IMG/VR virus record: IMGVR_UViG_3300008954_000045
Location: 1-64,000 of that record
Length of the DNA: 64,000 bases
Reading direction: 5' to 3' (one strand)
Origin: a virus
The notes under the pieces were generated by a model. It did no database searches. It worked only from the letters and a program-made list of their open reading frames with translations, and was not told the origin of the DNA. Within the stretch, counting starts at the first letter, position 1. Every line of letters starts with the position of its first letter. Positions 13,029 to 15,122 of this stretch are shown here, piece after piece. The translations under genes and the position numbers were made by a program.

Positions 13029-14198
13029 TTACATCACCCAACCACCATCAACTTCCCATTGTTGCCCCGAATCATCAATATATGTAGTCTCTTGAGAACC
13101 CAAACCATCCTCAATGAACCCAAATGGGGTCATATCATCTTCAATTTGTTTCATTTTTTCTTCATAAAGGTCTTTACGAATATCAAGATTGGTCAATTCC
13201 TTGAAATATGATTGGGTTGTCAACCATCCAAACAGAACTAAGGTCATCACCAAGTCATCGTGATGTCCTGTTTCCGCCTGATATGATTTTTTCTTAGAGA
13301 TGAATGAAACGAACTCTTTGATAATGTCAAAATCTTCAACAATCAATTTATCCTCTTCAACCATACTCTTCAGAAGAGAGCATCCGACTCTCTTTACTGC
13401 TTCTGTTGTTCTGATTCCATATTGACTCTGCCCAGAACCAAATCCACCATCCAGAGTTTGTCCCTTTCTACCACGAATAGTAGTAACCAATAAATGGTCA
13501 TATTCCATTTCGTGATGAAGAATGTCTGCAACCTGTCCACCAATATCATTCAATTCCACAAGAATGTGTGCTTTGTTGTATTGCATTGCTGCTGCATATA
13601 TCGCATTTGGATATACAAGTGGTGACATTTCGTTATTTCTAAATTTGGCAACTACCCTATATGGCATAGAAGTAATATCCACAATGGTGAATGCGTGATA
13701 ATCTAAACCCTGTCCTCTCGAAACATCAACACACATCACATAAGTATGGTCTTCTTCTGGTTCAACCAAAACATCGAACCCTTCATCGTTTTTGAATACG
13801 GGGTCGTTGTATGTCAATTCTTTCAATTTCTTCGATTCAATGAGTGTGTTTACACTACCCACGAAGTCACAATTATGAGAAACTAAACCATTTGAAAAGT
13901 ATTCGTGATTTTCAACTTCGAGAATATCAAACAAATCAATTTCATCTTCAAAAATATTAACAAACGAAACTGGCGAGGATTCCTTTACACCAACAATAAA
14001 ATCACCGCACAACAATTCTTTACTTTTCTTCCAACCATCTTTAGTTTTTACTTTATGGTTCAATGAACATTTAAGTTCTGTGCTTTTGGTTGAAATTGTA
14101 GCGTATTCTGATTTTGAAAGTTTTCTCATACCAGAGAACGACTTCCAACCAGAAGGTGTCATTATTTCATATTGTGTGTTTTTTATATGTTCTTCCAC
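13029..14198 (-). CDS. gp17: gp17 terminase large subunit, C part: split-intein IntC + nuclease domain
   Basis: This 389-aa ORF starts at a GTG (14196-14198). Residues 1-109 are the C-terminal part of an intein: ITP-like EIMTPSGWKSFSGM near 11-24, block B KCSLNHKVKTKDGW near 43-56, block F DLFDILEVENHEYF and block G GLVSHN ending at Asn109, followed by Cys as +1 extein residue. Residues 110-389 are the rest of gp17: CDFVGS, then the RNase H-like nuclease with VDVSRGQG (Asp158), VELNDIGGQ and GHHDDLVMT (314-315). The reading frame is the same as that of the N part, but two TGA stops lie between. Trans-splicing with the N part would give a normal 546-aa terminase. A suboptimal AGGA lies 14 bases before the GTG. 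Confidence 0.93.
   Translation of the reverse strand: MEEHIKNTQYEIMTPSGWKSFSGMRKLSKSEYATISTKSTELKCSLNHKVKTKDGWKKSKELLCGDFIVGVKESSPVSFVNIFEDEIDLFDILEVENHEYFSNGLVSHNCDFVGSVNTLIESKKLKELTYNDPVFKNDEGFDVLVEPEEDHTYVMCVDVSRGQGLDYHAFTIVDITSMPYRVVAKFRNNEMSPLVYPNAIYAAAMQYNKAHILVELNDIGGQVADILHHEMEYDHLLVTTIRGRKGQTLDGGFGSGQSQYGIRTTEAVKRVGCSLLKSMVEEDKLIVEDFDIIKEFVSFISKKKSYQAETGHHDDLVMTLVLFGWLTTQSYFKELTNLDIRKDLYEEKMKQIEDDMTPFGFIEDGLGSQETTYIDDSGQQWEVDGGWVM
13872..14198 (-). other. split intein C-fragment (IntC, 109 aa)
   Basis: This segment encodes the long C-terminal piece of an atypically split intein: block B with Asn-His (CSLNHKV), block F and a terminal Ser-His-Asn before Cys+1. No homing endonuclease domain is present. 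Length and break position match the AceL-TerL type, which also resides in a phage terminase (established knowledge, from memory). Confidence 0.9.
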
Positions 14199-14213
14199 AT
14201 TATATGTATGAAT

Positions 14214-14232
14214 CCTACGAATTCACATTCAA
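14214..14232 (-). other. relict copy of the intein insertion site at the split point
   Basis: The minus strand reads TTGAATGTGAATTCGTAGG. The continuous extein site (bases before the intein at 14325-14330 joined to 13871 and down) reads TTGAATGTGACTTCGTGGG, 17 of 19 identical. Read in the extein frame, the relict spells ECEFVG against ECDFVG, and all mismatches fall at third codon positions. Read in the intein frame, it gives the two TGA stops (14229-14231 and 14223-14225). Confidence 0.75.
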
Positions 14233-15122
14233 TAAAGGAAGTCAAATGCCTCTTTCATTGACACTTCAAACTCTTCTTGTGTGTCCTTATCTCTTACAGT
14301 AATCATCGTATTACCATCTAAACATTCAAATTCCGTGCGGAACTGTTGTTCAGAGGTATTGGCAATTGTTTCTTCTTTCCATTTCTCATCACGACCAGGC
14401 ACCTGACTCCAATGAATCTCAATGGGTACATATGAATTTCTACCATTTAATGCATTGTTCCAGAATTTATAGAATAGATTCATACCGTGCGGGGTTGAAA
14501 CCATCAAAACTTTTGTAGTTTCACCCGAAGTAATGGTAGGATATACCGAACTGAAGAATTCATCTGCCACTTCGTGCGGAACGAATGCAAATTCATCAAG
14601 GAAAATAAGATTGAACGAACTACCACGAATTGCACTGGATGAGGTAGCAGAAGCAAGAATTCGTGAACCATTTTCTAGTTCAATTGTACCCTTGTTCCAT
14701 TGCTCAACACCTTGTTGTAACCATTTAGGAAGGTGTTCATATGCAAGTTTCAACCTATGCAGAAGTTCCCTTGCTGTTGCTTGTTTATTTGCAAGGATAG
14801 CAACACTCACTTCTGCATTGAATAGTACATAATGTAAGAGATATGCAATTGTGGTTGTAGATTTACCAGACTGTCGTGGGAGTTTGCAAATCACAAAACG
14901 ATTATCGTGAACCGTATTTACAATGTGTTCCTGAAAATCATATAGATCAAAATTTACCAAACCTCTATCGAGGTGAACAATCTTCACATACTTTTTAATG
15001 AAGTAGATGGGGTCTTGCTGGCATTTCAGATACTCTCCGATTTGCTCTGTGGTAAAATCAACATTGACACCTTTTGCTTTTAGGTTGGGATTACCAAGAT
15101 AATGATCAATCTTCTCCGCCAT
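14229..15122 (-). CDS. gp17: gp17 terminase large subunit, N part: packaging ATPase + split-intein IntN
   Basis: Residues 1-266 are the ATPase domain of the T4-type packaging motor: Walker A PRQSGKST near 82-89, coupling-type ASATSSS near 158, Walker B LIFLDE with Glu177, and motif III VSTPHG near 208-213. After FRTEFE the sequence changes at Cys267 to CLDGNTMITV, the block A of an intein, and stops after 31 intein residues (AFDFLY). Without splicing this would be an ATPase lacking its nuclease. The downstream ORF carries the rest of intein and terminase. It overlaps gp16 by 17 bases. Being cut inside the intein rather than the extein argues for a functional split intein and not a dead gene. 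Confidence 0.95.
   Translation of the reverse strand: MAEKIDHYLGNPNLKAKGVNVDFTTEQIGEYLKCQQDPIYFIKKYVKIVHLDRGLVNFDLYDFQEHIVNTVHDNRFVICKLPRQSGKSTTTIAYLLHYVLFNAEVSVAILANKQATARELLHRLKLAYEHLPKWLQQGVEQWNKGTIELENGSRILASATSSSAIRGSSFNLIFLDEFAFVPHEVADEFFSSVYPTITSGETTKVLMVSTPHGMNLFYKFWNNALNGRNSYVPIEIHWSQVPGRDEKWKEETIANTSEQQFRTEFECLDGNTMITVRDKDTQEEFEVSMKEAFDFLY
14232..14324 (-). other. split intein N-fragment (IntN, 31 aa)
   Basis: This piece begins with the nucleophile Cys1 in CLDGNTMI directly after extein residues EFE and ends at a TGA. A 31-residue IntN is far shorter than the roughly 90-100 residues of ordinary split inteins, but fits the atypical TerL class (about 25 residues in AceL-TerL, from memory). 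Confidence 0.9.

Follow-up and report, generated by a model that had tools for sequence, protein, structure and literature searches.

In the T4-like terL gene (gp17) on the minus strand of the viral DNA analysed here (64,000 nucleotides of IMG/VR record IMGVR_UViG_3300008954_000045, hereafter the window), an intein splits the gene at FE/C, and the point at which the intein is itself broken carries a short sequence that resembles the empty terL insertion site. What a near copy of an extein sequence is doing between the halves of an intein is the question that this locus raises. The comparisons described below make it probable that the motif is an operator that mimics a homing site, through which a homing endonuclease represses its own gene.

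The two intein halves (Table 1) have the features of the AceL-TerL type, namely insertion at FE/C, a short IntN with Cys1, an IntC ending in HN and Cys or Thr at +1, and the site and size of IntN equal those of the split TerL inteins of loci L020-L083. The match of IntC to Pfam Intein_splicing is weak and lies under the Pfam cut-off. As judged from its residues, the intein is of the atypically split TerL type, and its splicing in trans is putative.

Table 1. Features of the split terL gene in the window and of the homing-endonuclease gene (HEG) in the related locus L003.
Feature	Position	Strand	Basis or remark
terL (gp17) N-extein and IntN ORF	14229..15122	(-)	ORF call; Pfam Terminase_6N; ends ...EFE, then CLDGNTMITVRDKDTQEEFEVSMKEAFDFLY and stop
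IntN, 31 residues, Cys1	14232..14324	(-)	Translation and junction
Probable homing-site mimic GAATGTGAATTCGTAGGA (extein frame ECEFVG)	14213..14230	(-)	Corresponds to 14214-14232 of the initial annotation
Decayed late-promoter-like element CATACATA	14203..14210	(-)	Alignment to L003; activity putative
HEG deletion junction	14198..14199	(-)	Alignment to L003
IntC, 109 residues, GTG start, ends HN	13872..14198	(-)	ORF and junction
terL C-extein, starts Cys+1 DFVGS	13029..13871	(-)	ORF and junction; Pfam Terminase_6C
HEG ORF	L003:2356-2931
IntC ORF of L003	from L003:2916

Read on the minus strand from 14232 to 14214, the motif is TTGAATGTGAATTCGTAGG, and the empty terL site, obtained by rejoining the extein halves, is GAATTTGAA followed by TGTGACTTCGTGGGTAGT; 17 of the 19 bases are identical, and both mismatches (GAC/GAA and GTG/GTA) fall at third codon positions. 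In the IntN frame the motif reads TAT TGA ATG TGA, and TAGGA stands 5' of the GTG start of the IntC ORF (14198). A search of the 64-kb window allowing up to three mismatches returned the motif and the C-terminal intein/extein junction only, and dinucleotide shuffles of the window gave a mean of 0.02 such matches. In these respects the initial annotation was borne out: the resemblance to the empty site, with third-position mismatches only, is present as described; the shuffles agree with its judgement that the likeness is not due to chance; and direct reading of the sequence confirms that the motif marks the break point, gives the IntN stop and supplies the TAGGA before the GTG.

In two relatives of the window (L003 and L004), the IntC of which is 86% identical to that of the window, a GIY-YIG HEG of 191 residues lies between the intein halves, and its end overlaps the GTG start of IntC by 16 nt. 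The counterpart of the motif in these loci, GAATGTGAATTCATAGGA, is found 12 nt 5' of the HEG ATG. Compared with L003, the window has lost 560 nt by a deletion that begins at the HEG ATG and ends immediately 5' of the IntC GTG, so that the IntC start now stands at the former start position of the HEG. Contig L002 matches the window exactly across 1,998 bases and enters an HEG at its contig edge, where the end of that gene is preserved. L003, L004 and most relatives thus have an HEG between IntN and IntC, L002 has part of one and the window has none. The promoter element, which in the window has decayed, reads TATACATA in L003/L036 and L082 and TATAAATA in most relatives. Most likely, to judge from these alignments, the window lost its HEG recently, with the operator, the decayed promoter and the intein remaining. 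Loss is a better account than gain, since the window keeps the block of motif and promoter and since other HEG-less loci (L033/L048, L101/L103 and L231) keep pieces of the HEG end; an assembly artefact may also account for the missing gene. Among the relatives, L092/L096 and L101/L103 form pairs with and without an HEG, and their HEG-less members keep the mimic, TATAAATA and the HEG tail.

The likeness of the break point to the terL site is conserved family-wide, beyond the window genome. A scan of IMG/VR with an IntN motif returned 64 contigs with about 40 distinct split TerL inteins at the site of the window, and in nearly all loci with an HEG the DNA at the end of IntN spells [E/D]xEF[LIVF]G in the extein frame, followed by TATAAATA and then by the HEG start. 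Two patterns that combined the motif with TATAAATA mostly returned the same type of locus, to which about 28 of the 40 contigs from the first and 50 of the 74 distinct matches from the second belong. A scan with an HNH HEG protein gave 80 loci; among those inspected, almost all are split TerL inteins at the same site, and most have a recognisable mimic. The mimic stands beside the T4-late-promoter-like TATAAATA in dozens of split TerL inteins with a GIY-YIG or an HNH HEG, and the motif supplies the IntN stop in the window and in most relatives. It is weak or missing in some loci with an HEG (L035 and L229). No mimic was found in the HEG-less L047 and L051 or in the contiguous L060, nor where the HEG has no such promoter (L113, L115, L117 and L120), as in Campylobacter, Vibrio and Shigella phage records in which an intein-borne HEG or HEG-like ORF is present without TATAAATA.

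Several of these loci are of interest in themselves. L060, in which a contiguous intein occupies the TerL position used in the window and both HEG and mimic are missing, may represent the ancestral state. In the cultured T4-type Shigella phage SP21535 (L117, PQ615101.1), a split TerL intein occupies another site, IDE/C; the ORF between its halves has no type assignment, and neither a late promoter nor a target mimic was found there. In Vibrio phages K469 and 1.244.A (L115 and L120), the intein site of which in TerL is that of the window, IntN continues in frame into a GIY-YIG-like HEG, which makes the TerL-N ORF long. The terminase gene of Campylobacter phage vB_CcoM-IBB_35 (L113) apparently contains several successive inteins and HEG-like ORFs, annotated as hypothetical protein and MobE, and a RecA/UvsX-like ORF of Salicola phage SCTP-2 (L114, gene 204), annotated as hypothetical, apparently contains two inteins.

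The HEGs of the relatives have Pfam matches to GIY-YIG, HNH_3 and NUMOD3, some of those to GIY-YIG and NUMOD3 being slightly under the Pfam cut-off; NUMOD3 was not reported in the two HNH proteins scanned with Pfam. A C-terminal part is common to the GIY-YIG and HNH enzymes, and on a tree of this part the catalytic type switches at least three times. Domain swapping is indicated by L055 (HNH) and L063 (GIY-YIG), whose C-terminal DNA-binding parts are sisters (98/94 support) but are linked to catalytic domains of different type. The phages collection gave no match to GIY-YIG HEGs of the L044 type.

The arrangement of the mimic around the late promoter argues for a function at the level of DNA. 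In most loci the mimic lies 1-3 nt 5' of TATAAATA, a promoter called by consensus only. It is inverted in L028/L031, and in L071/L078/L230 an inverted mimic lies 5' of the promoter and a forward mimic 3' of it. In seven loci (L071, L078, L230, L264, L268, L280 and L292), the IntN coding sequence (KKVAIKEIIN and similar) spells both an inverted arm and a TATAAATA-like promoter, and regulatory and coding signals apparently overlap there.

In the statistical comparison of the mimics with their own targets, loci that had been fetched by the mimic pattern itself were excluded because circularity was to be avoided, and the other NUMOD3 HEG loci (L008-L019), which lie in unrelated contexts, were left out. 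A rank test on raw DNA was replaced by peptide-level and pooled tests because of its low power in AT-rich sequence. Over 25 loci with an HEG, the insertion-site peptide was the best of about 380 windows of the TerL of the same genome when compared with the 65 nt that precede the HEG (mean z 9.2; DNA z 7.2), and it ranked first in 15 of them; the same comparison at the HEG 3' end gave no signal (z -0.7 and -0.2). Compared by codon position with the extein of the same genome, the mimic shows 82% identity at the first, 93% at the second and 37% at the third position, and the last value is about the level of chance; therefore, the mimic is not a recent copy. In pairwise comparisons of loci, identity at fourfold sites of the extein is 38-51%, with 34% expected by chance, whereas the mimic is 73-87% identical at positions 1 and 2 and 43-64% at position 3; conservation of the mimic thus extends to distances at which neutral sites are saturated.

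The mimic also varies together with the target in its own genome. Among 43 clusters, none of 5000 permutations reached the pooled score over four variable positions, although such values are guides and not strict probabilities because the loci share ancestry. Position +2 by itself was not significant (609 of 5000 permutations), and the +1 Cys/Thr signal follows HEG clades. Unusual residues at -1 are mirrored in the mimic of the same locus, with Ala in L266, Asn in L301 and Asp in L297.

A model proposed from these comparisons is that a GIY-YIG or HNH enzyme, encoded between the halves of a split TerL intein, would be expressed from its own T4-type late promoter and, through the related C-terminal DNA-binding part, would recognise a stretch of about 18 bp that runs from codon -1 to codon +5 around the insertion point of the empty terL site, which is taken to be the homing site. 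Binding to the copy beside the promoter would repress the gene of the enzyme, with little cutting. That the mimic is spared from cleavage is a guess, and the reason proposed for inefficient cutting is that the mimic lacks the flanking sequence that cleavage would require. The block of operator and promoter doubles as the 3' end of the IntN ORF, the stop of which it supplies, and in the window a deletion of the HEG from its start codon to that of IntC would have left the operator over. It is likely that this represents a widespread class in T4-like phages, in which each HEG of a split TerL intein regulates itself through a mimic of the coding sequence that it targets, and in which the mimics co-evolve with the target in the same genome, tolerate wobble changes, persist through catalytic swaps and occur singly, inverted or doubled around the late promoter.

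Other explanations fare less well. An ancestral HEG might have entered the intein at a chance sequence similar to the homing site, the likeness now merely recording that entry. Entry of this kind is said to have been proposed by Loizos and co-workers in 1994 for I-TevI in the td intron, and the position of the mimic at the HEG border in nearly all loci makes one common origin plausible. However, a record of entry should decay rather than be conserved and co-vary with the target, inverted and doubled copies are not predicted by it, and the contiguous intein L060 has no such site. Entry may have been the origin of the operator; as an account of its present state it is unlikely.

The initial annotation had instead read the motif as a scar, left by a repair or recombination event that brought a piece of another gp17 allele into a cis intein and thereby, in a single step, made it a split intein. 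The 17/19 match, the restriction of mismatches to third positions and the location of the motif, with its stops, at the break all accord with such an event. When relatives are compared, the resemblance at the break is indeed kept, and no uninterrupted intein lacking it was found among close relatives, but the break contains an HEG, of which the motif forms the 5' border, and the proposed one-step split is not supported. A neutral scar would be free of constraint, would not follow the residues of its own target and would not be inverted, whereas the motif is strongly conserved beside the HEG promoter in diverged loci, with positions 1 and 2 far above fourfold sites, tracks its own target and is sometimes inverted; it is also missing from HEG-less L047 and L051 and from L060. 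The scar is therefore very unlikely.

About as improbable is an RNA element, in which a hairpin would hide the ribosome-binding site of the HEG on read-through transcripts. Such hairpins are known for HEGs of T4, where the position of the late promoter keeps late transcripts free of them (PMC2988022). In the present loci the mean folding z is -1.03 (-4.3 in L049), and the promoter of L028, L071, L078 and L230 lies between inverted arms, but most loci have no shared structure, and a hairpin leaves both the match to the terL site and the co-variation of the -1 residue unexplained. On the folding test, a hairpin was rejected as the sole explanation; the weak tendency to fold across the mimic could be a second constraint. 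Translation of the motif as a terL-derived N-terminal extension of the HEG, which would give the third-position pattern, is extremely improbable and was rejected largely by frame counts, as an open frame shared with the HEG exists in 8 of 29 forward copies and is lacking in 21, stops occur within the motif in L026, L049 and L284, and the inverted copy of L028 has the same wobble pattern.

If repression by a homing-site mimic is correct, self-control of this kind would extend from three group I introns of T4 to split inteins in large number and variety, and the co-evolution of operator and target would have comparative evidence behind it. Non-coding DNA here varies like coding DNA, a pattern interpreted as left by an enzyme to which wobble positions do not matter; the likely target footprint of each enzyme would be obtainable from sequence alone, and the odd break-point sequence of HEG-less split inteins would be explained. 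No description of a homing-site-mimic operator in inteins was found in a literature search with limited reach into subscription papers.

Among known split inteins, that of AceL-TerL is presumably represented here by L051, L059 and L064, through their IntN. In L051, HEG and mimic are both missing; the window, in contrast, keeps its mimic after loss of the HEG. With the atypically split inteins AceL-TerL, GOS-TerL and Cat (PMC11766414) the intein of the window shares a very short IntN (25-37 residues), a long IntC (104-115 residues) and a TerL C-extein with Cys+1. Fractured genes, in which an HEG lies between split-intein halves (Dassa et al., 2009, as summarised in PMC11766414), resemble L003, L004 and many relatives in this placement; within the bounds of that summary, the loci here differ in that their HEGs are of GIY-YIG and HNH type, with a related C-terminal part and, in the GIY-YIG ones, NUMOD3.

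The closest parallel is I-TevI of phage T4, in which a homing-site mimic (15/20 identical) overlaps the late promoter; I-TevI binds this mimic with the affinity of its homing site, cuts it about 100-fold less and represses its own expression, and similar putative sites exist for I-TevII and I-TevIII (PMC2988022). In the relatives, as for I-TevI, the mimic lies directly 5' of the HEG and overlaps or abuts a T4 late promoter, and both GIY-YIG and HNH enzymes occur here and in T4. Identity here is mostly 13-19/21, compared with 15/20 for I-TevI, and binding and repression, proven for I-TevI, are deduced here from sequences. The host of the element is a split intein rather than a group I intron, and the window has lost its HEG and its promoter has decayed. 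Also unlike I-TevI, the operator here ends the IntN ORF, exists in inverted and doubled forms, and co-varies with its target over many loci.
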